IMG/VR virus record: IMGVR_UViG_3300049027_000140
Span: 34,116 to 98,115 of that record
DNA from: a virus
Reading direction: 5' to 3' (one strand)
Length of the DNA stretch: 64,000 nt
In this document: piece by piece, positions 1,705 through 60,651 of the stretch
Numbering within the stretch: the stretch's first letter is position 1
How the letters are laid out: each line of letters opens with the position of its first letter
Program-made: the position numbers and the translations under genes
Notes under the pieces: generated by a model
The model's database searches: none
Seen by the model: the letters and a program-made list of their open reading frames with translations, nothing else
Told to the model about the DNA's origin: nothing

Positions 1705-2139
1705 ATGGACATCGACATTCGCATCGGTCGTTTCAGGCTCTCATGGTCGTCGCGCTCATCGCTCATGCCGGAGAGCGCCCGGGAGATGGAGCAGGAACTC
1801 CTGAGCCTCCGCGCTCGGAACCGGCACATCGAGCTCAAGGAGATGGACATGCAGGACCTCCTCCGGCGCGAGCTCCGCGGCGAGCCCGAGGACGAGCCGA
1901 GCCCGCACGCGGCGAAGTGCGCGGCCGACCTGATCCGGCGCCTGAAAGAGGAGCTGGCCGAGGAGCGCTCCGGCGCGCGCGAGCTCCTCACCGGGCTGAT
2001 GAAGCGCGGAGCCACGCTCGCCCAGGTCGCGGACGCGGCCGGCGTCGAGTTGGACGAGCACCTCGACGACAACCAGATCGTCGGCGCGGTCCGGAGCCTG
2101 CGGGCGCGCACGGCGCCGCTGGTGCGGAGCGCGGCGTGA
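1705..2139 (+). CDS. Hypothetical helical protein, 144 aa
   Basis: ATG at 1705 follows GAGGAGG; a GTG three bases upstream is possible. Residues 24-100 are charged and helical, with heptad-like spacing (EMEQELLSLRARNRHIELKE), suggesting a coiled coil. Residues 104-120 (TLAQVADAAGVELDEHL) look like a short HTH-like bihelical unit. No family is recognised. It lies immediately upstream of the exonuclease gene and is translationally coupled to it. Confidence 0.75.
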   Translation: MDIDIRIGRFRLSWSSRSSLMPESAREMEQELLSLRARNRHIELKEMDMQDLLRRELRGEPEDEPSPHAAKCAADLIRRLKEELAEERSGARELLTGLMKRGATLAQVADAAGVELDEHLDDNQIVGAVRSLRARTAPLVRSAA

Positions 2140-2858
2140 TCCTCGCCCTCGACATCGAGACCATCCGTCACCCGGACGTCCCGGCGCCGGAGGCCGACGA
2201 GCAGGAGGACCGCTGCCCGGCGGCGCCGCATCACCGGATCGTCGCGGCGGCTGGAGTGGTGCTGGAGGAGCAGCACAAGCCGCTCTGGTACGAGGCTGAC
2301 CGCGCCGTGACGTTCGGCGAGGGCAGCACGGAGGAGCCCGTGATACTGGAGCACCTCGCGCGCGCCTTCCGGAACCGGCCGCAGCTGCTCACCTGGAACG
2401 GCGACGGCTTCGATCTGCGCGTGATCATCGCCGCGGCGATGGAGCACGGCATCCCGGTGCCGTGGCTCCTCTCCCGCGAGGTGACCTATCGATACGGCTG
2501 TGACGGCCACGAGGACCTCTGCGACACGCTCTCGCAGTACGGAGCGGCGAGGCGTGCCAAGCAGGACGCTTACGCCCGGCGGATCGGCCTGCCGGGGAAG
2601 ATGGGCGTGGATGGCGGAGACGTGGCCGCGATGGTTGCCGAGGGCCGCCTGGAGGTGCTGCGAGAGTACAACCTCCAGGACTGCGGCCAGCTCGCGGGGG
2701 TGTTCATCCGGCGCGAGTACGTGGCCGGGCGGCTGACGCTGGAGGGGTACCGGCAGAGCGCGGCGTCGCTCGTGGGCTTGATGGAGAGAACGCCGGGGCT
2801 TCGGCCGATCGTCGAGCACGAGCGGTTCAACCGGAAGCGTTTTTTGCTGGAGGGGTAG
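2136..2858 (+). CDS. PolB-type 3'-5' exonuclease (DnaQ-like fold)
   Basis: Likely a stand-alone 3'-5' exonuclease related to the exonuclease domain of B-family polymerases. The three metal-binding motifs are visible: LALDIET (Asp6, Glu8), LTWNGDGFD (Asp93) and YNLQDC (Tyr178, Asp182). At 240 residues there is room only for the nuclease domain. It starts at GTG inside the previous stop and runs directly into the YqaJ-type nuclease, followed by RecT, so it belongs to the DNA recombination or replication module. A role in trimming 3' ends during recombination or repair is inferred from position. Motif-based family assignment is strong; the substrate is unknown. Confidence 0.88.
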   Translation: MILALDIETIRHPDVPAPEADEQEDRCPAAPHHRIVAAAGVVLEEQHKPLWYEADRAVTFGEGSTEEPVILEHLARAFRNRPQLLTWNGDGFDLRVIIAAAMEHGIPVPWLLSREVTYRYGCDGHEDLCDTLSQYGAARRAKQDAYARRIGLPGKMGVDGGDVAAMVAEGRLEVLREYNLQDCGQLAGVFIRREYVAGRLTLEGYRQSAASLVGLMERTPGLRPIVEHERFNRKRFLLEG

Positions 2859-3713
2859 ATGCTGACGGAATCCCAACGCGCAGCCAGGATGGCGGGGCTC
2901 GGCAGTTCGGATATCGCTGCGGTGGCCGGCGAGCACCCGTACAAGAACGCGCACGCCGTCTGGCTGGAGAAGCGCGGGCTCGTGGATCCGCAGCCCGAGA
3001 CCGACGCGACGTGGCTGGGCCACCAGATGGAGCCCATCATAGCTGCCCGGTACGCGCAGGAGATGGGCGTGCGCATCGTTCCAGGACCCGGCACGGTCGC
3101 GCATCCGGAGCACCCGTGGGCGCTCGCGACGACCGACTACGAGCATGCGGACGGCGCGCGCGTGGTCGAGTGCAAGTGGGTTGGAATGCGGCCTATGGCA
3201 CACTGGTCAATGGATGCGGACGGAGCGCCGATCTACGTGAATCTGCAAATGCAGCATCAGATGTTCGTGCGAGGCATCAACCGCGCCGACTGCGCTGTCA
3301 TCTTCGGCGCAACTGCCGAGTTCAGGATCTACGAGTTCACGCGGGACAACGGGATAATCGATGCTATCTTCCGCATCGGCCAGCGCTTCTGGCAGCGAGT
3401 GCTCGACGGCGAGCCGCCGCCCATCGACGAGACGGAGGAGGCGCGGCAGACGCTGCTCGCGCTCTACCCGACGAGCTACGCGCCGCTGAAGCCGGCGCCG
3501 CCGGAAGCTGACCGGTGGTTCCAGGAGCACGAGGCGGCGGACGCCGATGCGGAGGCGGCGCTGGCGAGGAAGAAGCTGGCGGCGAACAAGCTGCGTGAGG
3601 CGATCGGGGATGCCGTGGGGATCGAGGGTCCCTTCGGCAAGGCGACTTGGAAGGCGGACAAGAGGGGCGTGCGCACGCTGCGCACCTACCCGAGGAAGGA
3701 GCGCGCCGCGTAG
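2859..3713 (+). CDS. YqaJ-type viral recombinase exonuclease
   Basis: Expected to resect double-stranded DNA ends 5'-3' to produce 3' overhangs for the RecT annealase. This is the lambda Exo/RecE role, carried out by a PD-(D/E)XK nuclease. Visible hallmarks are GLGSSDIAAVAG (13-24), LGHQMEPIIA with Glu58, the metal-binding Asp93 in ATTDYEH, and VECKW with Glu104 and Lys106. Length (284) is normal for the family. The C-terminal 80 residues are helical. It begins one base after the upstream exonuclease and precedes recT, the usual exonuclease-annealase pairing. Confidence 0.93.
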   Translation: MLTESQRAARMAGLGSSDIAAVAGEHPYKNAHAVWLEKRGLVDPQPETDATWLGHQMEPIIAARYAQEMGVRIVPGPGTVAHPEHPWALATTDYEHADGARVVECKWVGMRPMAHWSMDADGAPIYVNLQMQHQMFVRGINRADCAVIFGATAEFRIYEFTRDNGIIDAIFRIGQRFWQRVLDGEPPPIDETEEARQTLLALYPTSYAPLKPAPPEADRWFQEHEAADADAEAALARKKLAANKLREAIGDAVGIEGPFGKATWKADKRGVRTLRTYPRKERAA

Positions 3714-8303: not shown

Positions 8304-8503
8304 CCCTCCTCGCCTCGCGCTACCCGCACCTCTCCCCTGCGCACCTTGCCGATGCGGAGGAGCAGTTCCAGGCGATGCGGGCGGCGCTGAACGAGCGGAA
8401 CGGCCGCGGGCTCGGGCCGAGGCGGAGCGACGGGTGGCTGGCGGAGATGGCGGTGGATGCCGCGTTGCGGGGTGTGAAGGTGGGGTGGTTGTGGGGCGGG
8501 TGA
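8300..8503 (+). CDS. Small hypothetical protein, 67 aa
   Basis: GTG start inside the previous stop. A helical protein with SRYPHLSPAHLADAEEQFQAMRAAL and a Gly/Trp-rich end (VKVGWLWGG). No family is recognised. Confidence 0.55.
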   Translation: MTLLASRYPHLSPAHLADAEEQFQAMRAALNERNGRGLGPRRSDGWLAEMAVDAALRGVKVGWLWGG

Positions 8504-41976: not shown

Positions 41977-42968
41977 CAGGCTGCGGCCCTGGGCTCCGGG
42001 CGGTACATCCGCAGCGCGGACTCGCGCGGGATGTTGAATGGGTCGCGGAGCGCGTTCAGGCGCAGAATCTCGACCGCGCGCGACTGGTCGCCGTACACGG
42101 CCCGCGAGACGTCGTGGACGCTCATCCGGTCGAGCGGCGTAACGTAGAGGATCACGCGCTCGCGCTTCCGCTCGATGTCGCGGCGCCGGTCGTCGGCCGC
42201 CGCCCAAGCGGCCAGCGTCGCCTGCCGGAGGCGAGCGTTTCGCGCGTCCTGCATCGGAGCGCGGCTCGCCACCTCCTTGGACAGCGAGATGATGCGTTGG
42301 ATCTTCAGGTCGAGCTGCGTGTTGTAAAAGTCGGCCTGGTCGTCGATGGCCAGCAGCGCGTTGAAGGCGTCGTCCAGCGCGCCGAGCAGGTCCAGCACGT
42401 CCTGCTTCGCTGCGTCCGGCGGCGGGACGTTGGGGGCCAGGAGCGGGTCCGTCGGCGGCGCCTCGAGGATGACCTGGCCCGGCGGCGTCTGCCGGTACCG
42501 CTCCGTCACGTAGGCGAGCCGCTGCTGGGCCTGCTCCACGGCGGCGGGAGCGGTCACGTCGAGGAGGCCGTTCAGGAAGAGGGTGTCGACGTACTCGCGG
42601 AACGTGAACTCGACGGTCACCCCACTGCGCTGGCGCGCCGTCATGGTCTCGGGCCAGTTCACCGCGTAGGCGGTCAACATTCCGAGCGTGGGGACCACGA
42701 GTTCCTCAGGCTTCCCGGCCTCGCAGATGTTTCGAAGGCGGTTCCACCGGCGCGGGTAGAGGTCCGCGGGCCACCCGAGAAGGGTATTGTGGAACTTCGC
42801 CCGCATCCTGAAGCTGTAGAGCTTCCGACCGAGGAGCTCGGGGGCACCTCCTGGCGCGTGCGGGTACTCGTGCACGTGGTCGCGCAGGCCACCGTCGATG
42901 CTGACCTCCTCGACGGGGAACTCGAGGCCCGCGAACGAGGCGCGCTTGAGGCGGTCGAAGGCAGCCAT
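41976..42968 (-). CDS. Mu gp43-like (DNA circularisation N-type) tail protein with LysM-like end, 330 aa
   Basis: The first 110 residues match the DNA_circ_N family: DRLKRASFAGLEFPVEEVS, RDHVHEYPHAPGGAPELLG, and strands with FRMRAKFHN and LVVPTLGMLTAYAVNW. The middle is helical. Residues about 275-325 resemble a LysM-like motif (MSVHDVSRAVYGDQSRAVE, ILRLNALRDPFNIP), known in gp43/gp53-type tail proteins. Despite the family name it is a tail-initiator component. Confidence 0.82.
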   Translation of the reverse strand: MAAFDRLKRASFAGLEFPVEEVSIDGGLRDHVHEYPHAPGGAPELLGRKLYSFRMRAKFHNTLLGWPADLYPRRWNRLRNICEAGKPEELVVPTLGMLTAYAVNWPETMTARQRSGVTVEFTFREYVDTLFLNGLLDVTAPAAVEQAQQRLAYVTERYRQTPPGQVILEAPPTDPLLAPNVPPPDAAKQDVLDLLGALDDAFNALLAIDDQADFYNTQLDLKIQRIISLSKEVASRAPMQDARNARLRQATLAAWAAADDRRRDIERKRERVILYVTPLDRMSVHDVSRAVYGDQSRAVEILRLNALRDPFNIPRESALRMYRPEPRAAA

Positions 42969-45439
42969 CAGGGAGTCGGAAAGCCGATGTAGTCGCCGGA
43001 CATGTCGACGCGCGGACCGGTTGGCTGCGGGCGCGCGGCCTCGGCGATGTTCATCACGTTGACGTTGAGCGTGCCGTTTGCGAGGCGGTTCAGGACTTCA
43101 TTGTTGCGCTCGAGTTGCGCGACCATCTCCTCGAGCTGCGCCTTGTCGCTCTCCATCTGCGACTGCGCGTCGAGGCTGGTGCCGACCGACCCGCCGGAGA
43201 TGTAGTTGGCGATCGCGGAGATGCCGCGGCCGATCGTGCCTTGCGTGAGCGAGGTGGTGAAGACCCCCGTCTCCGCGTCCTTCGCCGCTTCGATGCGTGC
43301 GGCGAGCTTCTCCTGCTGCGCCTGGAGCTCCTTGATGGCTGCGGGGTCGGCCTGACCGAGCGCGGCCATGCCCTCTACGCCGCCCATCACGCCCTTGGCC
43401 ATGTCGACCGGGCCTCCCAGCTTGCCCGCGGTGGCCACGGCGTTGGCGCGCGCGACGGCGGCGCCGGTGAGCGCGTCCTGCGTCTTCGACGTCGCCTCGT
43501 CCTTCGAGTTCATCACCCTGTCGATCACAAGCTCGCCGACCTGCTCGATGGTCACGGCAGTGGCTGCGATCGCGAGCGCTGCTCCAGCAGCACCGATGGC
43601 GCCGCCGGGGCCGAGGAACTTGCCTCCCTTGCCGGGCTGCCCGCCAGCGGCAGCGGGAACGAGCACAGAGCCAGCGCCGCCTGCCGCAGCGCCACCGGCC
43701 GTGAACCCGGTCTTGATCGCGCTCTCGATGCCTGCGCGGATCGTCGCCTCACCAGCGGCCCGGATGATGCTCACTCCGAGCACCGCAAACGCTGCCTTGA
43801 GCGGGTTGTCGGACACCCATACGGCCAGCTTCCCCAGTGCATCGACCGCGTCGATGGCGACCGGTCCGAGCCTCTCCAGCTTCGGCAGTACCTCTTCCGT
43901 GAACCGCCCGCCCGCGCTGGCGACCGCGTTGTTGAAGAGCTGGACCCGCGCCTCGCTGCCGGCCATCGACCGGTTGAACGACTCGGTGATCTCGCCCTGG
44001 GCCATGGCGATCTTCTTGAACTTGTCGAACTCCGCACGAACCGCGGCGAGCCCGGCGTCCCCGCCGCCCGCCTGCCGGTACGTGTTTGCGAAGCCTTCAA
44101 CGGCGCGGGCGCCCTGCACGTTGGCGAAGATCTTCTTGAACGCCGCGGGGTCACCTTTCGTGGCCTCCAGCGACTTGAGGATGATCTCCTCGGGGTTCTT
44201 GAACATCCCCGTCTTCTCGTTGTAGACCTTCTCCCCGGTCGCAGCCTCGAAGGCCTCCATGCGCGCCGGCGTGCGGAGGGTGTTCACGAACGACGCGACG
44301 CTCGTGGCGGCCTGCGTGGCGCTGGCGGAACCGCCCTTCGCGCGGCTCATCTGCACGAGCGCGCCCATCATTGTCAGGTTCTCCATCGGGTCGCCCTCGA
44401 AGGCGGTCGCCGACGTGCCGAGCTTGGCCATCTGCGTGGCGAGGTTCTTGATCTCGACCGCGCCGATCTTCCCCTGGCCCGCGATCACCTTCATGATCGC
44501 GCTGACCTTGCCGCCCTTGTTGTCGGTATCGCCGAGTGCGTTCGCGACGTCGCCGGCGGCATCCACCATGTCCTCGAGCTCTGCGCCCGTGGCGCGCGCG
44601 AGCTGGGCCATGTCCTTAAGCGAGTCGCGTCCGGCCTGGAGGTCGCCGGTCTTGGCCACGAACGCCTGGAGGCCCTGGAGGACCTTCGCGGGGTCGAACG
44701 CGGCGAAGTTGGCGACCTCGGTCGCCTGCGACATGAGGGCGCGCGGGTCCTGTCGGACGCCCGCCGGCCCCGTCGCGCCCGGCATGAAGCCGGCGTTCGA
44801 CAGGTCCGTGGCGCGCTTCTCGAGTTCGACGGCGCCGCCTACGATCGAGCCGATGTCCGTCTTGACGCCGGCGCCGCGGGCGATGTCCTGCGCCACCTGG
44901 GAGCCCGCGCGGACCATCCCGCCGACGTGGTGGATCGCGCGGTAGCTGGTGCGCCGCCCGAAGCTCTCCTGCTCTCGGTCCTCACGGGCGGCCGCGTGCG
45001 CCTGCTGACGCTCGAACCGGCGCCGGAAGGCCATCGCCGCGCGCCGGGCCCGCAGTTCCTCGTTCGCCGACCTGATGGCCTCGCGCTCTGCGTTCCTGGC
45101 CGCCTGCGCCGCCTCGGCGTCCGCCTTCCGCTGCGCGGCCGCGTTGCGCTCGATCCCGCGGCGCTCCTCTTCCTGGGCCGCGCGCTTGATGCGGGCGATT
45201 CGGTGGACCTCTGCGGCCTGGCGGGAGAGCTCTCGCTGGGCGACACGAGCGGCGCGCGCAGCCTCGTCCGACTCGCGCTTCGGTCCGCCGGCGCCGCCAC
45301 CTCCGCCGCCACCGCGGAGCGGCTTGCCGAGTTCTGCTTCGATCTGCCGGCGCGCGATCTTCGCGCCCTCCACGAAGGGCCGGTACAGCCCCGCGACGTT
45401 CGCGTCGAGCGCGGCGCCTACGCGAATGCGAATGTCCAA
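42968..45439 (-). CDS. Tail tape measure protein, 823 aa
   Basis: Sets tail length and is ejected before the DNA. The first 150 residues are charged coiled coil (AARVAQRELSRQAAEVHRIA). About 225-450 is the phage minor tail core with ATGAELEDMVDAAGDVANAL and MENLTMMGALVQMSRAKGG. Hydrophobic Gly/Ala helices at about 555-650 (VLGVSIIRAAG, GAIGAAGAALAIAATAVT) could insert into the host membrane. At about 1.5 angstrom per residue the tail would be near 120 nm, which is inference. It follows the two chaperone genes. Confidence 0.92.
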   Translation of the reverse strand: MDIRIRVGAALDANVAGLYRPFVEGAKIARRQIEAELGKPLRGGGGGGGAGGPKRESDEAARAARVAQRELSRQAAEVHRIARIKRAAQEEERRGIERNAAAQRKADAEAAQAARNAEREAIRSANEELRARRAAMAFRRRFERQQAHAAAREDREQESFGRRTSYRAIHHVGGMVRAGSQVAQDIARGAGVKTDIGSIVGGAVELEKRATDLSNAGFMPGATGPAGVRQDPRALMSQATEVANFAAFDPAKVLQGLQAFVAKTGDLQAGRDSLKDMAQLARATGAELEDMVDAAGDVANALGDTDNKGGKVSAIMKVIAGQGKIGAVEIKNLATQMAKLGTSATAFEGDPMENLTMMGALVQMSRAKGGSASATQAATSVASFVNTLRTPARMEAFEAATGEKVYNEKTGMFKNPEEIILKSLEATKGDPAAFKKIFANVQGARAVEGFANTYRQAGGGDAGLAAVRAEFDKFKKIAMAQGEITESFNRSMAGSEARVQLFNNAVASAGGRFTEEVLPKLERLGPVAIDAVDALGKLAVWVSDNPLKAAFAVLGVSIIRAAGEATIRAGIESAIKTGFTAGGAAAGGAGSVLVPAAAGGQPGKGGKFLGPGGAIGAAGAALAIAATAVTIEQVGELVIDRVMNSKDEATSKTQDALTGAAVARANAVATAGKLGGPVDMAKGVMGGVEGMAALGQADPAAIKELQAQQEKLAARIEAAKDAETGVFTTSLTQGTIGRGISAIANYISGGSVGTSLDAQSQMESDKAQLEEMVAQLERNNEVLNRLANGTLNVNVMNIAEAARPQPTGPRVDMSGDYIGFPTP

Positions 45440-45445
45440 GGCGGA

Positions 45446-46057
45446 TTATTCCTGCGTCGTCTCGTCGTCGTCCGCCGCTTCGTCCGTATCAGCGACGCGC
45501 GCGCGCCCGGCGCCGATGCGGTCCAGCACGACAACGAGCAGCCGTCGCGTTCCGCGCTGCTCCGCCTCGCTCATGCCCACGAACGGCGCGTCGCTCTCCA
45601 GGATCGCTGCGAGGTCGAGGAGTTCGTCGTCGGAGATCGGCTTGTAGAGCGGCGAGGTCTCGAGGTCGAAGACCTCGATCTCGAAGGCGAGGAGCTTCAC
45701 GCCCTCGGTCGACAGCGCCATCCGCACGGTATCCTCGGCGGCCCGGAACCACGGCTTGCGCTGGTCGTCCGGCTGGCAGGTCGTGCGCGCGATACGGTGC
45801 CTCAAAAGCGCGTCGTTGAAGCAGTCGACCGCCTCCGGGGTGTTCCACCGGTCGCCGTAGCGCGCGAACACGAACCGCGCCGACTCGTCCCGCGCGGCCT
45901 GAATGTCCTCGTCGGGCACAATGCGCAGGCCCATCTCGACGGGCTGCTCGGGGCGCTCCGGCCACTCCCACGAGAAGGCCTCGGGCGGGACCGTGATGAC
46001 CTTCGGCGGCCGGTGCTTCTCGGCGTCGTCCGGCTGATGCGCGGCAAACGTCGACAT
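45446..46057 (-). CDS. Second tail assembly chaperone-like protein, 203 aa
   Basis: Acidic and helical with a variable acidic end (VADTDEAADDDETTQE). The context between the first chaperone-like gene and the tape measure gene is where phages encode chaperones that wrap the tape measure. It starts at an ATG sharing one base with the upstream stop. Its frame is -1 relative to the upstream gene, but the -1 product of that gene ends at 46061, just before this start, so it is not a direct fusion. Confidence 0.65.
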   Translation of the reverse strand: MSTFAAHQPDDAEKHRPPKVITVPPEAFSWEWPERPEQPVEMGLRIVPDEDIQAARDESARFVFARYGDRWNTPEAVDCFNDALLRHRIARTTCQPDDQRKPWFRAAEDTVRMALSTEGVKLLAFEIEVFDLETSPLYKPISDDELLDLAAILESDAPFVGMSEAEQRGTRRLLVVVLDRIGAGRARVADTDEAADDDETTQE

Positions 46058-46644
46058 CAGCTATTCAACGGCTTTGCGGCGGAGCTCGTAGTTGTATCGG
46101 AGCCCCATCCAGAGTGCGACTTGAGCTCGAGTGAGCTCATGCACTGGGCGGCAGTAGTACGCATGAAGATCCACCGCAAACCTGGCCGCATCCTCAAGAA
46201 AGGGCGCTCGTCCTCGGACGTGGCCACCTCCACGACCTTCGCGACGAACTCGTCGCCCGTGAGGGTGAGCTGCTGCGGGGCGCAGCGGTCCTGCCAGATC
46301 TGCTGCGCCTCGAAGAGGTAGGCGATGCGGTCGCGGTCGAGCCCCAGCCGGATCTCCTCCTCGCTGGAGAAGAACGGCACCGGCGCCTCGTCAGGCGATT
46401 CAGGGTCGCTGTACGAGAGGAGGATCGTGAAGCGGGCGAAGGCGCGGTCGTAGAGGGTGTTGCCGGGCTTCGGGTCCTCCACGCCGAGCTTCTTCGCGTG
46501 CTCACGCGCGAGCCGGTCGATCTCCTCGTCCTCGTCGTCGAGGAGCGCGCGCACGGCCACATTGGTGACCTCGCCGCTGGCGAGCGGCAGGTCAACCGGG
46601 TGCCGCCCCCGCGTCCCTCTCGCGATATCTCGAAACCTCGGCAT
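46057..46644 (-). CDS. Tail assembly chaperone (gpG/Mu gp41-like) with -1 slippery site
   Basis: ATG 46644; 195 residues in the zero frame. The first 145 residues are typical of Mu-like tail chaperones (PGNTLYDRAFARFTILL, FVAKVVEVATSEDERPF). The minus strand reads C-CCT-TTC at 46204-46198, the X-XXY-YYZ heptamer for -1 frameshifting. The zero frame ends at 46057 with RPGLRWIFMRTTAAQ. The -1 frame stays open to 46061 with ARFAVDLHAYYCRPV and ALWMGLRYNYEL. Third-position GC drops in both frames here, so dual coding is possible. Confidence 0.8.
   Translation of the reverse strand: MPRFRDIARGTRGRHPVDLPLASGEVTNVAVRALLDDEDEEIDRLAREHAKKLGVEDPKPGNTLYDRAFARFTILLSYSDPESPDEAPVPFFSSEEEIRLGLDRDRIAYLFEAQQIWQDRCAPQQLTLTGDEFVAKVVEVATSEDERPFLRMRPGLRWIFMRTTAAQCMSSLELKSHSGWGSDTTTSSAAKPLNS
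46061..46204 (-). other. Predicted -1 frameshift product tail of the chaperone gene
   Basis: Starting at the slippery heptamer (46204-46198), the -1 frame encodes about 45 further residues and stops at TAG 46063-46061. The tail reads as a normal helical protein (VHELTRAQVALWMGLRYNYE). No ATG in this frame lies close enough upstream for an independent gene. Confidence 0.55.
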
Positions 46645-47018
46645 CAGGCGAACTCGGGCTCGCCGCCCTCGGCGGTGAACGCGCCCTTCACCGTGCCGGC
46701 GCGGGAGTCGAAGTTGTACGAGCGGCTCATGATGCGCATCGTCAGGAGTTCGGCGCGGCCGTCGATGATGACGGCGACCTGTGCGTACTCCTTGTTCTTG
46801 ATGATGTTGCTGAAGGTAATCTCGTGGCCCACGGCTGGCACGACCGTGTTGAAGGTGAGCCGCGTGATCCCGGCGCCGTCCGAGTGGCCCATCCAGCCCT
46901 CGGAGCCGAACTGCGCCTCGTCGCCGGAGTTGTGCTCGTACGTGCCGCTCTCGATCTCCGCGACCTTGCGGCTGTTGATGTAGACCGAGGCGTTCCTGAA
47001 CGTCTTGGGGGCTGCCAT
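46644..47018 (-). CDS. Tail tube protein (Mu gp40 position), 124 aa
   Basis: Forms the inner tube of the contractile tail. Strands TFRNASVYINSRKVAEIESG, GHEITFSNIIKNKEYAQVAV and LTMRIMSRSYNFDS, plus one small helix, give the tube fold, and SGDEAQFGSEGW fits the tube-to-tube loop. Mu-type tube proteins are 110-130 residues. It follows the sheath gene directly. Confidence 0.85.
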   Translation of the reverse strand: MAAPKTFRNASVYINSRKVAEIESGTYEHNSGDEAQFGSEGWMGHSDGAGITRLTFNTVVPAVGHEITFSNIIKNKEYAQVAVIIDGRAELLTMRIMSRSYNFDSRAGTVKGAFTAEGGEPEFA

Positions 47019-47026
47019 GGGCTACC

Positions 47027-48523
47027 TCACGCCGCCATCTGGCGCACGGAGACGCCGATCTGGTGCTGGCTGGGAGCGACGACGACCGGGCAGATCGACA
47101 TGATCCGCTTCGCCGCGCTGTTGTACTCGCTGGTGGGAAGGTGCGTGTCGACGTCGATGATCTGCGGCGGGCTCGCGCTCTCGAGGTCCTTGAGGTACTT
47201 GACGGTGCGCTGCGTCCACCGCTTCGGGGTCGCCACGCCGGCGGGCCGTTCCTTCCCGTCGGGCAGGTCGTCCGCGACGCGCGGGTTCGCAGGCTTGAAC
47301 TCACTGAGCCAGACGAGACGCAGCCCGTCGCGCACGTAGTCGGGCACCACCGCCTCGCTCGTGTCGAGGGTGTTGTAGTCCGGCGTCGTGCCGTTCAGGC
47401 AGCGCGTGGTGATCGAGCGGCAGACGACGACGCGCCCGTCGTTCGTGGTGAGCAGCGGCGTGACGCCGTTGTCGAGGCACGCGCTCTGCGTCGACACGCT
47501 CGGCCAGTCGGCCACGAAGGCCTGCGGCGCTATGCCGAGGAGCTGCTTGTCGTCGTACGAGGCGCCCGGGTCGTCGCCCTCGGTCGCGGCGCGCAGCGCG
47601 GCCATGGCCGCCGCCGTCTCGCTCGGGTGCGACTCGCCGTTTAGCTGCCAGAGGTTCTGGAAGCGCGGGTCGTTGAGCGTGGCCGTGGAGAGCGACGCCG
47701 CGGCCGACTGCGTGCCGTTCGTCGCGACGACGACGTGCTCCATGCGACCCTCGGTGGGGCCCGCCTTCGCGTTGATGTGCGTGCGCCAGCGACCGAGGTT
47801 GGTCGCGTCGTTCTGCGCGATCGCGATGCGCTGGTACCAGCCGGAGTAGATCGCCGTGAGCAGGGTCGTGACGTCCGTGGTCCCGGTGCCGCCGGTGAAC
47901 TTCACCCCGCCGCCTGTGACCGAGGCGCCGCCTGCCAGCGTGACGGTGACGCCCGCCGCGAGCAGCGTCTCGTCCTTGTGTAGGACGTACTGGTTGCCCT
48001 CGACGCCAGCGCTCTTCACCTCGAGGGTGACCTCGCCGGCATCGTTCACCGCGGTGACCGGCAGCCACGGCTTCTCCGAGAACGCCGTCACGGTCGCGTC
48101 GCCAATATCGGTCGCGGTGTCGCCGCTCGAGATGGTCACGGAGACGGTCTCGCCGCCGACGCGGAAGAACACCTCGCCAGAGCTCGACGCGGGGCCGGCG
48201 AACGTGATGGTCGCCGAGGCGCCCACCGCGCCGCCCGCGCGGGCCGGCGCCGCGAGCCAGATCCGGACGTTGGGCACCCTGGACGCCGCGGCGAACATGC
48301 GCGCGAGCTGGCTGCCCTCGCCGGCGTACGCGTTGGCCTCGTCCTGGTCGAAGGCCTGCACGGGGCTGCCGTTCTCGGTCATCGTGCCGTCGTCGCTGAT
48401 GAGACCGACGAGAAGTAGGTTGATGGGGATCGACCCCTGCGCGAGCGCCCCGGCGCCGAAGATGGTCTCCGCGGCGAACATCGGGACCTTGAAAGACGAG
48501 CTGAAGCCGACGATTTGGATCAC
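47027..48523 (-). CDS. Mu gp39-like tail sheath protein, 498 aa
   Basis: Contractile sheath subunit. The N-terminal opening (VGFSSSFKVPMFAAETIFGA), a central beta-rich insertion (about 100-230) and a C-terminal region with TTRCLNGTTPDYNTLDTSEA and LVWLSEFKPANPRVADDLPD match Mu-like sheaths. The end (SAAKRIMSICPVVVAPSQHQ) carries the extended arm used in sheath interlocking. This gene establishes a myovirus-type virion. Confidence 0.93.
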   Translation of the reverse strand: MIQIVGFSSSFKVPMFAAETIFGAGALAQGSIPINLLLVGLISDDGTMTENGSPVQAFDQDEANAYAGEGSQLARMFAAASRVPNVRIWLAAPARAGGAVGASATITFAGPASSSGEVFFRVGGETVSVTISSGDTATDIGDATVTAFSEKPWLPVTAVNDAGEVTLEVKSAGVEGNQYVLHKDETLLAAGVTVTLAGGASVTGGGVKFTGGTGTTDVTTLLTAIYSGWYQRIAIAQNDATNLGRWRTHINAKAGPTEGRMEHVVVATNGTQSAAASLSTATLNDPRFQNLWQLNGESHPSETAAAMAALRAATEGDDPGASYDDKQLLGIAPQAFVADWPSVSTQSACLDNGVTPLLTTNDGRVVVCRSITTRCLNGTTPDYNTLDTSEAVVPDYVRDGLRLVWLSEFKPANPRVADDLPDGKERPAGVATPKRWTQRTVKYLKDLESASPPQIIDVDTHLPTSEYNSAAKRIMSICPVVVAPSQHQIGVSVRQMAA

Positions 48524-55474: not shown

Positions 55475-56170
55475 CTACGCGGCGCGGCCGCTCTCGAGCG
55501 GGAAGAGGCCGAGCACGCGCGAGCGGTAGAGAGGGTGGCTCGCGTAGTCCGGTCCCCATTCGCGCCGCTTCTCATCGATCCACGCGCGCGTCGCGAGGCC
55601 GTGGATGACCCTCTCGCCGGTCTGCGCGTTCGGTGTGTCCTCGCTGTTGAGGCGCATGGTCGACCAGCGCGGCTCGTGCGCGCCGTGGTGGATCTGGTGC
55701 CAGAGCGTGCCGGGCTCGGCCTTGGCGAGGCCGAACATGATGGCGCGAGCGCCGGCGTCCGTTGCCTGGTCGATCGCGCGCAGAGTCTCGTCGCTCAGAT
55801 GGTCCGCGTTGTCGACGACGATCAGCTCGGTCCTGCCGACCACTTCGAGCGGATCAGGTCTCCACCATGAGAACTCCGACGAGCAGAAATAGATCTTGCT
55901 CTCCGCGGCCCGACCCGGCAGCAGGTTCAGTACGTCGTTCACCAGAACGATGCCTGGTGACACCAGGTGCACACGTGACCATCGCGTCGCGTAGAACCAG
56001 AGCGCCGCCGCTGCTGCGGCGGTCGTCATGCCGGTCTTGTGACCGGACACGACTGCGAGCCGCGGCGCCTCGGCAGCCGCGCGCAGGACGTCCTCCTGCC
56101 CACGCCAGAGCGTGAGCCCGAGGTCCTCGCGGGCGAACTCGCTGGGAGACACGTTCGACTGGTCGCTCAT
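55475..56170 (-). CDS. Truncated TerL paralogue with lost catalytic residues
   Basis: A 231-residue protein that aligns with the ATPase half of TerL (58160-59794). LWRGQEDVLRAAAEAPRLAV matches LWRAQRRICKAI, and VSGHKTGMTTA (42-52) matches KSGHKIGKS. The segment GLATRAWIDEKRREWGPDY (191-209) is nearly identical to GLATLGWIEEKRKEWGPDY of TerL. The Walker A Lys is Met48 and Walker B Asp-Glu is Asp120-Asn121, so ATP hydrolysis is not expected. The protein ends before the nuclease domain. It lies between portal and protease genes. A packaging regulator or motor partner is inferred; it could also be decaying. Confidence 0.85.
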   Translation of the reverse strand: MSDQSNVSPSEFAREDLGLTLWRGQEDVLRAAAEAPRLAVVSGHKTGMTTAAAAAALWFYATRWSRVHLVSPGIVLVNDVLNLLPGRAAESKIYFCSSEFSWWRPDPLEVVGRTELIVVDNADHLSDETLRAIDQATDAGARAIMFGLAKAEPGTLWHQIHHGAHEPRWSTMRLNSEDTPNAQTGERVIHGLATRAWIDEKRREWGPDYASHPLYRSRVLGLFPLESGRAA

Positions 56171-57725: not shown

Positions 57726-58163
57726 TCACGACCTGACGGTGTAGAACAGGTTCACCTTGACGCTGCCCGCGGTCGCGGTGTTCAGGTCCTCGCTGCTCGT
57801 GATGACGACCTTGTACGTCTCGTTCGCCAGCGGGCGCATCAGGACCGCCTCGACGCCCGCGGTCCCCGTCTTCGGGAACCCGGTCTGCCCGGCCGCGACG
57901 TTGACCGTCGTAACGATCGAGTCGTCGTCGCTGTCGCTCCCGACCTTGAGCACGTAGGTAGCGGTCGCGCCGTCGGAGAAGCCCGTGAAGCTCTCGCCGA
58001 TCGTGTGGCCGAGGTAGCGCGCGTCATCGGGCAGGACGGCGCCAAGGTCGACCTCGTGGCTCGTCACGCCCTCCGCCAGGTCGGCGAAGTCCGTGAAGGC
58101 GATCGTGACGGTGCGCTTCTGGAATGCGGCGCTGGGAACGCCTGCGGGGGTCATGCCTCTCAT
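57726..58163 (-). CDS. Small structural protein between TerL and portal, 145 aa
   Basis: Beta-rich (TVTIAFTDFADLAEGVTSHE, ATYVLKVGSDSDDDSIVTTV, VKVNLFYTVRS), with no enzymatic motif. The position suggests a minor head, decoration or neck component. ATG 58163 overlaps the TerL stop; a second ATG three codons later is possible. No family is recognised. Confidence 0.65.
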   Translation of the reverse strand: MRGMTPAGVPSAAFQKRTVTIAFTDFADLAEGVTSHEVDLGAVLPDDARYLGHTIGESFTGFSDGATATYVLKVGSDSDDDSIVTTVNVAAGQTGFPKTGTAGVEAVLMRPLANETYKVVITSSEDLNTATAGSVKVNLFYTVRS

Positions 58164-59794
58164 CCGAATCCTCTTCCGGGCTGGTCCGCGTAGCGGAGCG
58201 GTGTCTGCTTCTTCGGCAGGTGGACGGTGCGGCGCTTGACCACGCCGTCGAACACGGCGAGCCCGGCCCCGTCGCCATGGTCGGGGGAGCGGCCGATGCG
58301 CTTCTTGAGCTTGTCCTTGCTCTCGATCTGGACGCGGCCTACGCCGTCCAGGAAGTACTTCGGGGCGAGCAGGTCATCCTGGAGCCGCTGGTCGGGCTCG
58401 AAGCCACCGCCGGCGCGGATCCAACTCCGCACGCCCAGGCCGATCTCGGCGCGGAGGTTGACGTACTCGTCCTCGTTGCCGTCGGTCGGGCTCTCGCCGG
58501 AGTTCACCGCGATCACCTCGACGCCGCGCTTGTGCTTCAAAAAGTCGTAGGCGGAGGCGCCGATGCCGATCGCGTCGATGAGCACCAGCGGCCGCTCGAC
58601 GCCGACCACGTGCTCCTCGATGCAGGTCATCACCTCGTCGGCCACTTCCTGCCCGTCGCAGAACTTCAGCACGCGAGGCTGGAAGAGCCGTAGGCCGCGC
58701 CGCGGGTAGATGACCGTGAGATCGTCGCCGTACCTGGCGGGGTCGACGCCGATCTGGAGCCGCTCTGTCGGCTCGCGCCAGGCGCCGCGAACCACCGCGA
58801 GTTCGCCTGGGGTGCGGATGATGCCGCGCCAGTTCTTGGGGTCGTCGAGAAGCTCTCGTCGCCCGAGCAGCTGCGCGGCGAACGTGTACCAGACGCGGTG
58901 GGCCCGCTCGATGTCCTTGAGCGAGACGACCTGGTCGGCTGCCTGGAGCGGAAACTCGCCGAGGACGCGCACGCGGTACCGCGGGTCGTTCTCGTAGTCG
59001 GGGCCCCACTCCTTGCGCTTCTCTTCGATCCAGCCGAGCGTGGCCAGGCCGGGGAGGACCTTCTTGCCCGCCCGGACGTTGGGCGTCTCCTCGCTGGAGA
59101 AGCTGAAGCAGATGTAGAGGTCGCGCTTCGAGTTGAAGGCGTCGTAGAACTCGCCCGACGTCTGCGTCGGGTTGCTGAACATCAGCACGGAGGCGCCGCC
59201 GGCTCGGTTGCCGTCGATCGCCTCGAAGATCGCCGCGCCGACGCCGCTCGCCTCGTCGATGAGGTAGAGGATGTTCTCGCCGGAGATGCCGGCCATTCGC
59301 TCGGGCTGCTTCGTGCTGAAGCCGAGGACCTCGCTCTGCTGCCCTGACTCAAGGTGCTGGAGCCCGAGCTCGGGCACCTCGTGCAGGCGACCACCGAGAC
59401 CACCGAGGACCTTGAGCCGATCGGCTGCGAGCCCCCAGAGCTTGCGGATCTCCCTCCACAAGATGCTGCGGATCTGCCGCGCCGTCGGAGCCGTCATGAT
59501 GACGCGGGCGGCGGGTCGCGTGACCCACCACCACAGCGCCACGACGGCGATCACGAGGCTCTTACCGATCTTGTGGCCGCTCTTGACCGCGACGCGGACC
59601 GGCCCGCGGGAGCTCCGCGCGATGGCCTTGCAGATCCGCCGCTGGGCTCGCCAGAGCTGGACGCCGAACACGTCCCAGGCGAACCGGACCGGGTCGTTGT
59701 ACCAGCGCGCGATGAGCTGCGCGGCCAGCTCGCGGGCTTCGCCGCTGTCGCCCGGGGCCTCGGAGGCTCCGGCGTGGTCTGCTGCGGCCTGCAT
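58160..59794 (-). CDS. terL: Terminase large subunit, ATPase and nuclease
   Basis: The DNA packaging motor. ATG 59794 follows the small-subunit-like gene; the longer frame is spurious. The ATPase half has Walker A GHKIGKS (73-79, Lys78) and Walker B ILYLIDEAS (Asp180, Glu181). A C-motif-like FSNPT is at 206-210. The RNase H-like nuclease half shows IGVDPARYGDD (Asp351), LVLIDAIG (Asp407) and SPDHGDGAG (Asp505, Asp508). The 544 residues are normal. A truncated relative lies at 55475-56170. Confidence 0.95.
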   Translation of the reverse strand: MQAAADHAGASEAPGDSGEARELAAQLIARWYNDPVRFAWDVFGVQLWRAQRRICKAIARSSRGPVRVAVKSGHKIGKSLVIAVVALWWWVTRPAARVIMTAPTARQIRSILWREIRKLWGLAADRLKVLGGLGGRLHEVPELGLQHLESGQQSEVLGFSTKQPERMAGISGENILYLIDEASGVGAAIFEAIDGNRAGGASVLMFSNPTQTSGEFYDAFNSKRDLYICFSFSSEETPNVRAGKKVLPGLATLGWIEEKRKEWGPDYENDPRYRVRVLGEFPLQAADQVVSLKDIERAHRVWYTFAAQLLGRRELLDDPKNWRGIIRTPGELAVVRGAWREPTERLQIGVDPARYGDDLTVIYPRRGLRLFQPRVLKFCDGQEVADEVMTCIEEHVVGVERPLVLIDAIGIGASAYDFLKHKRGVEVIAVNSGESPTDGNEDEYVNLRAEIGLGVRSWIRAGGGFEPDQRLQDDLLAPKYFLDGVGRVQIESKDKLKKRIGRSPDHGDGAGLAVFDGVVKRRTVHLPKKQTPLRYADQPGRGFG

Positions 59795-60651
59795 CAGCGC
59801 CTCGGCGGCTGCCAGATGAACGGCCGCTTGGGCGCCGGGCCTGCCATGGCGGGCTCGGGAGCGCGCGGCGTGGGGGAAGGTTGCGGCGCCGGTGGGGTCT
59901 CCTCGACCGGCCCCTCCACCACCTCGCGGTCGGGCTCGCCGTCCGGTTCGCCATCGGCCCAGCGCGGTGGGGGCCTCAGGTACTCGTCCTCGTCCTCCTC
60001 GCCGTCGGGCTCGTCGCCCTCGATGGCGGGCGGAGGGCTGTTGCCCACGAGCGCCTTGAGGCCGTCGGCGGGGGTCTCCTTCTTCTGGCCCGGCAGCCCG
60101 CCGCCGGTGACCATGTTCCGGATCTGGACGAGCTTGCCGAGCTCCCTGGCGAGCCCTGCCATCAGGGTCGACTGCGGGAACGTCATCTCGTCGGGATTGC
60201 CACGGACGGTGCGCCCGACCGCCTGGACCGTCTGAAATAGCTCGAGCGCCAGCTCGTCCAGCCCGGAGAGGTCCGGCTTCCAGACGTGGACCTCGGTCGC
60301 GGGCTCCGACGCGTCGGGCCTGCTGTCGGGCCTCGGCGCCGCCTGTCGGGCCTGCTGTCGGGGCTGGCCGGGCCGGAGCGGGGTGACCGTCGCGACGCGG
60401 GCAGAGGGCGGTGGGGGCTTCTGGGCGGGCTCCGGCGCGCCAGCCCGGTGCAGCTTCCAGTGCCGGCCGAGGGCGTCGTGGCGGATGTGCTCGCCGTGCT
60501 CCGCCTCCAGCCAGACCGAGATCCCCCGCGCCGAGTCCCCGCGCGCCAGCCGCGCCTCGATCTCCGCCCGCCACGGCGACGTGCAGGTCTTGCAGTCGTG
60601 CCTGAACTTGGCGGGGCTGTTGTCGGGGCTGGCGGGCCTGTCGGCGGCCAT
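59794..60651 (-). CDS. Terminase small subunit-like protein, 285 aa
   Basis: Directly upstream of TerL and coupled to it (TGATG). Residues 20-68 have CKTCTSPWRAEIEARLARG and GEHIRHDALGRHWKLHR, the Cys-pair and HTH style seen in small terminase-like DNA-binding proteins. The middle is helical and acidic and the last 90 residues are Pro/Glu-rich and disordered. It probably recognises the packaging site. The identity is inferred from position and the HTH pattern. Confidence 0.7.
   Translation of the reverse strand: MAADRPASPDNSPAKFRHDCKTCTSPWRAEIEARLARGDSARGISVWLEAEHGEHIRHDALGRHWKLHRAGAPEPAQKPPPPSARVATVTPLRPGQPRQQARQAAPRPDSRPDASEPATEVHVWKPDLSGLDELALELFQTVQAVGRTVRGNPDEMTFPQSTLMAGLARELGKLVQIRNMVTGGGLPGQKKETPADGLKALVGNSPPPAIEGDEPDGEEDEDEYLRPPPRWADGEPDGEPDREVVEGPVEETPPAPQPSPTPRAPEPAMAGPAPKRPFIWQPPRR

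Follow-up and report, generated by a model that had tools for sequence, protein, structure and literature searches.

Does a tail assembly chaperone gene in which ribosomes may slip back one base near the 3' end carry a single functional C-terminus, reached by the shift, or two, written over the same nucleotides in different frames? The question is raised by the window (the whole stretch of 64,000 nucleotides analysed here, part of a 98,115-base IMG/VR virus record), whose minus strand carries a contractile-tail cluster, including baseplate hub genes. In the order of that strand, the tail sheath gene (47027..48523; phrog_165, E 1.3e-64) is followed by a tube-size gene for a probable tail tube protein of 124 residues (46644..47018; named from its position and size, without a family match), the chaperone gene (zero-frame ORF P0001 of 195 residues, 46057..46644), gene B (203 residues, 45446..46057) and the tape measure gene (42968..45439; phrog_794, E 2.6e-5). 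The chaperone gene is placed between the tail tube and tape measure genes, with gene B as the one additional gene in between. The initial annotation had put a slippery heptamer, C-CCT-TTC, at 46204-46198 of the minus strand, and it was located there (46198..46204), in the correct X-XXY-YYZ register with the ORF starting at 46644. The ends it had predicted were also found: translation terminates at TGA 46059-46057 in the zero frame and at TAG 46063-46061 in the -1 frame, leaving after the Pro-Phe pair a zero-frame tail of 46 residues (46057..46197, minus strand) and a -1 tail of 45 residues (46061..46198, minus strand; LEDAARFAVDLHAYYCRPVHELTRAQVALWMGLRYNYELRRKAVE).

The assignment of the gene as a tail assembly chaperone draws on its position between tube and tape measure and on a predicted fold like that of the HK97 chaperone 2ob9. 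The window chaperone has no Pfam family, and its sole match in PHROGs is one weak family of unknown function (E 0.26); phrog_508, a tail assembly chaperone family, was matched by one of seven members (E 0.0027). AlphaFold2 models were obtained for the window zero-frame product (mean pLDDT 78.9) and for the second chaperone copy of L007, a sister phage described below (mean pLDDT 85.9). Foldseek placed 2ob9 first and second among the matches of the L007 copy (probabilities 0.99 and 0.97, with weak E values of 0.04 and 0.07) and at ranks 2-3 for the window product (0.94 and 0.97, with weak E values of 0.17 and 0.23), for which yqbN 3klu was the rank 1 fold; besides these two, probabilities were at most 0.15 among the matches listed for both models. 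The -1-type tail of the L007 model comprises helices 149-154, 156-163 and 172-194, and the zero-frame tail of the window model comprises helices 154-170 and 172-178 followed by disorder, residues 150-170 having a pLDDT of about 73-77. Gene B is probably a diverged paralogue of the chaperone, as suggested by profile comparison (E 7.8e-4, probability 24.9) and by the match of the L007 gene B to the chaperone profile at E 2.2e-8, and the phage may therefore carry two chaperone-like genes in tandem.

Elsewhere in the window, a 231-residue gene at 55475-56170 is related to a longer ORF of the same phage, 58160-60574, which we take to be large-terminase-like, with 37-42% identity in two stretches. 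Its P-loop, compared by eye, reads GHKTGMT instead of the GHKIGKS of the larger ORF, so that its product may be ATPase-dead. The gene was present in one of the seven records searched, the window's own alone, and a Pfam search with it gave no match.

Viral contigs were searched for relatives of the chaperone by protein similarity and by pattern, and 11 of the records so obtained also with a profile, which brought to 13 the other contigs encoding it, or 14 with the window (W). Three were left out of the tests: L010 and L013, whose contigs break off within the chaperone, and L012, which does not differ from L011 at this gene. The frameshift arrangement is found in 11 of the 12 assessable contigs, representing 10 distinct sequences, and is absent from one, L007 (G001); tests on eight representatives use the ten distinct sequences minus L004 and L011. 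Identity between chaperone bodies falls to about 27% among these relatives, and the substitution counts of close pairs were too small for use. No cultured relative was found by tblastn in a phages collection (E up to 1 for the chaperone, up to 1e-10 for the sheath), and a sheath-profile search of genome contigs gave no match.

The bare heptamer is not rare, with 2 occurrences in the window against 4.0 expected; it is its conservation, not its mere occurrence, that exceeds chance. CCCTTTN stands at the same, shared Pro-Phe codon pair in all ten distinct frameshift genes, N being C in seven, T in two and A in one. Three of them (L025, L026 and L032) lend no independent support to the heptamer, since they were found with a search pattern containing CCCTTT together with -1-frame Leu-Thr-x-Ala-Gln and Ala-Ala codons. 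The other seven were retrieved without use of the heptamer, which is present in all five lineages found by protein similarity (the window, L005, L008, L009 and L014). Given Pro-Phe, the probability of C-CCT under contig codon usage is 0.027-0.083 per lineage, and the product over the five lineages, multiplied by hand, is about 2e-7. A Shine-Dalgarno-like motif lies within 22 nt upstream of the slip in 7/10 sequences, at varying distances; such motifs are ambiguous here because codons for the acidic residues encoded there tend to produce GAGG-like sequences. Past the slip, both frames are open for at least 40 codons in the 11 assessable contigs (10 distinct), so that stops breaking one of the frames, which were sought among the relatives, do not occur in the first 40 codons of either. 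The claim that the two tails are nearly equal holds for the window, but not for the relatives, in which the stops lie -35 to +109 nt apart; across the ten, the -1 tails have 41-70 codons and the zero-frame tails 40-83. The zero-frame tail of L008, after position 8314, has 83 codons, with an acidic end past the -1 stop, and extends precisely to a GTGA shared with the following gene.

The C-terminal domain reached solely through the shift is more conserved than constraint from the zero frame would explain: over a null in which the zero-frame protein is fixed, the -1 frame has a conservation z of 17, and its tail carries the strongly conserved motif AYFGxPxxELTRAQVALWxGLR. The drop in third-position GC noted in the initial annotation is seen in the window, where 0.93 in the body becomes 0.71 in the zero-frame tail and 0.63 in the -1 tail, and recurs throughout the ten sequences, the -1 tails having 0.53-0.67 against 0.77-0.90 predicted from contig usage (z -3.4 to -7.6). 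The A/T third bases of the tail fall at particular codons, for example 3, 7, 11, 12, 18-20 and 23-25, and many of them yield hydrophobic residues in the zero frame.

Is the zero-frame tail then a second protein sequence, or merely an open one? In an ordinary programmed frameshift, the -1 tail alone would be functional and the zero-frame sequence irrelevant, its frame staying open through stop-poor, GC-rich DNA or for termination at the start of gene B. The openness agrees with this explanation: when the -1 protein is fixed and synonymous codons are redrawn from the usage of each contig, a zero frame free of stops over its first 38 codons has a chance probability of 0.40-0.62 per sequence. The joint probability is 0.0022 for the ten sequences and 0.0068 for the eight representatives (0.0015 and 0.0050 when the full overlaps are used), and a long open zero frame is by itself weak evidence of selection. 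Termination at the next gene would also account for the overlap of the zero-frame stop with the gene B start in six of the ten (TGATG in W, at 46055..46059 of the minus strand, and in L004; ATGA in L005 and L025; GTGA in L008 and L026) and for the L008 zero frame, which continues 36 codons beyond the -1 stop to the next start. In L011 and L014 the stop lies a few bases short of that start, but in L009 and L032 the zero frame does not reach it. The low complexity of the zero-frame end likewise favours an irrelevant sequence.

The beginning of the tail argues against irrelevance. Over zero-frame codons 1-24, the share of the residues VILMFWY is 0.38 against 0.12 expected, about threefold (z 11.7), and over codons 25-36 it is 0.17 against 0.12 (z 1.6). 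As a control within each genome, segments as hydrophobic as the tail or more so were counted: there are 11 in W, lying in three stop-to-stop ORFs that extend upstream of the listed starts, stretches that were kept in, and 0, 0, 6, 0, 0, 0, 0, 1 and 3 in the other nine contigs. In a position-wise test (BLOSUM62, 33 ungapped codons, eight representatives), the similarity of the zero-frame tails has a z of 2.5 over a null built on contig codon usage, 9/1000 simulations being as high, and a z of 11.2 over a null that keeps the third-base composition of the tail. Of the two frames, the -1 frame is the better conserved. The zero-frame constraint is strong only over the first ~24-28 codons, and what lies beyond looks like open, disordered filler. 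The dual-coding stretch (codons 1-24, 46126..46197, minus strand) corresponds to the predicted helix 154-170, and the prediction of a helix followed by disorder agrees with the location of the selection signal. The constraint on both frames proposed in the initial annotation, followed here through codon-level conservation in relatives, is thus borne out for the -1 tail and for zero-frame codons 1-24, with little signal in the zero-frame codons past ~24-28.

The split genes of the sister phage L007 (IMGVR_UViG_3300037510_000353, whose best sheath segment is 91% identical to that of the window) are stronger evidence than anything inside the window. This phage lacks a chaperone gene at the site between tube and gene B; instead, at 1737-3522, gene B precedes two tandem chaperone genes (2357-2935 and 2935-3522, overlapping where the stop of one meets the start of the next), which are followed by the tape measure. 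Both copies keep Pro-Phe and are without the heptamer. The end of copy 1, LELSPGLLWSVLRALGGYVL..., resembles zero-frame tails such as LELRPGTRWNFTRTLAFQYV in L026 (z 6.3, 0/5000 shuffles, versus z 1.4 with -1 tails), and copy 2 ends in frame with AYAARMSSDLQSYYGRPVCELTKAQIALFMGLRAEY, resembling -1 tails (z 11.5, 0/5000 shuffles, versus z 0.7 with zero-frame tails). The third-position GC of the two tails, 0.86 and 0.89 respectively, is at genome level: in separate genes both tails persist with normal third positions, and the codon compromise would therefore be gone. The separate genes suggest that both versions of the chaperone are needed. The split pair comes from one 13-kb contig. Nearest body identities are 56% between copy 2 and W and 51% between copy 1 and L005; the tree of chaperone bodies, mostly without resolution, fits one duplication or a recombination with a related phage, and is compatible with either the split or the frameshift arrangement coming first. 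Taken with the hydrophobic pattern and the third-position GC lowered in 10/10 sequences, a separate gene with normal codon usage and a zero-frame-type tail makes an ordinary frameshift, with the -1 tail alone functional, unlikely.

Could the third-position bias be the mark of an RNA element that stimulates frameshifting, and not of a second protein sequence? A downstream stem is often present at bacterial -1 sites, the conserved third positions start directly after the slip, and the L004 and L008 sequences fold slightly better than their shuffles (z about -2). The folds taken together disfavour such a stimulator as the source of the bias: the consensus of the ten sequences reaches -1.5 kcal/mol with 4 pairs, eight single 105-base folds give z from -2.0 to +1.3, and neither analysis, both directed at stems, reveals a conserved RNA stem after the slip. 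L007 copy 1 would moreover be left unexplained, and we regard this explanation as very improbable. As for an error in sequencing or assembly, or a gene in decay, a short C/T run is a place where errors plausibly arise, but both explanations, including the one-base error considered in the initial annotation, are excluded because the run and its register are identical in 10 distinct sequences whose bodies differ so widely.

The heptamer, the two frames and the L007 genes all support the conserved -1 frameshift with alternative C-termini first proposed for this chaperone. The model we favour, with a probability of about three in four, is a programmed -1 frameshift of the G/GT type in which the unshifted product would possess its own selected C-terminus, ~24-28 codons being dual-coding because the zero-frame helix overlies the codons of the -1 domain. 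Most ribosomes would stay in the zero frame and produce a chaperone whose C-terminus is a short hydrophobic helix with a disordered segment after it, and a minority would slip back one base at C-CCT-TTC, giving the same body a different C-terminal helical domain. By analogy with lambda, the -1 domain would be the probable counterpart of the T domain and may recruit tube subunits, and both forms would bind the tape measure, as PMC5009743 describes for lambda. The zero frame, usually open to the start of the next gene, may in addition couple the translation of gene B. In the sister phage, two chaperone genes do without the frameshift, one keeping the zero-frame-type tail and the other the -1-type. 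We also consider it likely that both C-termini over these codons are functional, that the frameshift chooses between them and that in at least one phage the conflict has been resolved by two genes, each with one of the tails and no frameshift.

If this model is true, the unshifted chaperone of an uncultured lineage of contractile-tailed phages needs a C-terminal helix of its own, and the coat of the tape measure may use two different C-termini instead of one that is present or absent. L007 and its relatives would offer what looks like a natural instance of overlapping frames resolved into two genes, and, since a split pair lets the isoforms be expressed singly and at chosen ratios, the reason why phages keep the frameshift becomes testable.

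Frameshifted tail chaperones are already known, their main survey reportedly being that of Xu et al. 2004, and, as far as our searches go, what is new is that an extended zero-frame tail is under selection and that, in one phage, the two tails occupy separate genes. Neither a split pair nor an extended zero-frame tail under selection was found described in the accessible portions of PMC5009743, PMC2628397, PMC3931495, PMC3091744, PMC3711429 and PMC10885494, a literature including few subscription papers. The PRFect study counts 342 genomes in SEA-PHAGES in which two chaperone genes occur without a joined gene, and presumes that the joined gene should exist (PMC10885494). Some of these genomes could be true split pairs.

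Systems of the G/GT type are characterised by two products in a fixed ratio, both needed and both absent from the virion, the body binding the tape measure and the -1 domain the tube. Lambda G/GT resembles the present gene in its position between tube and tape measure, in an X-XXY-YYZ slip near the 3' end and in two products with a common body (see also PMC5009743), but its zero frame stops 5 codons after GGGAAAG and its -1 extension has 144 codons, compared with 46 and 45 here, where, unlike in lambda, the zero-frame tail is under selection. P2 E/E+E' shares the contractile tail, the gene between tube and tape measure and the short -1 extension (57 codons in P2), but slips at TTTTTTG in place of CCCTTTC and leaves E only 6 codons past the slip. 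The HK97 chaperone fold (2ob9; HK97 gp13/gp14) is among the top three matches of both of our models, at weak E values; in HK97 and in Mu gp41 the shifted product is annotated in the record and the zero frame ends, by eye, about 5-7 codons past the slip, compared with 40-83 here, and the Mu shift is -2 instead of -1. An early zero-frame end, typical of lambda and P2 though no strict requirement, is therefore replaced here by a long double-open stretch, which sets this lineage apart from lambda, P2, HK97 and Mu, the four systems compared: the unshifted chaperone of lambda and P2 terminates almost as soon as the slip is passed, and that of these phages continues into a selected end.
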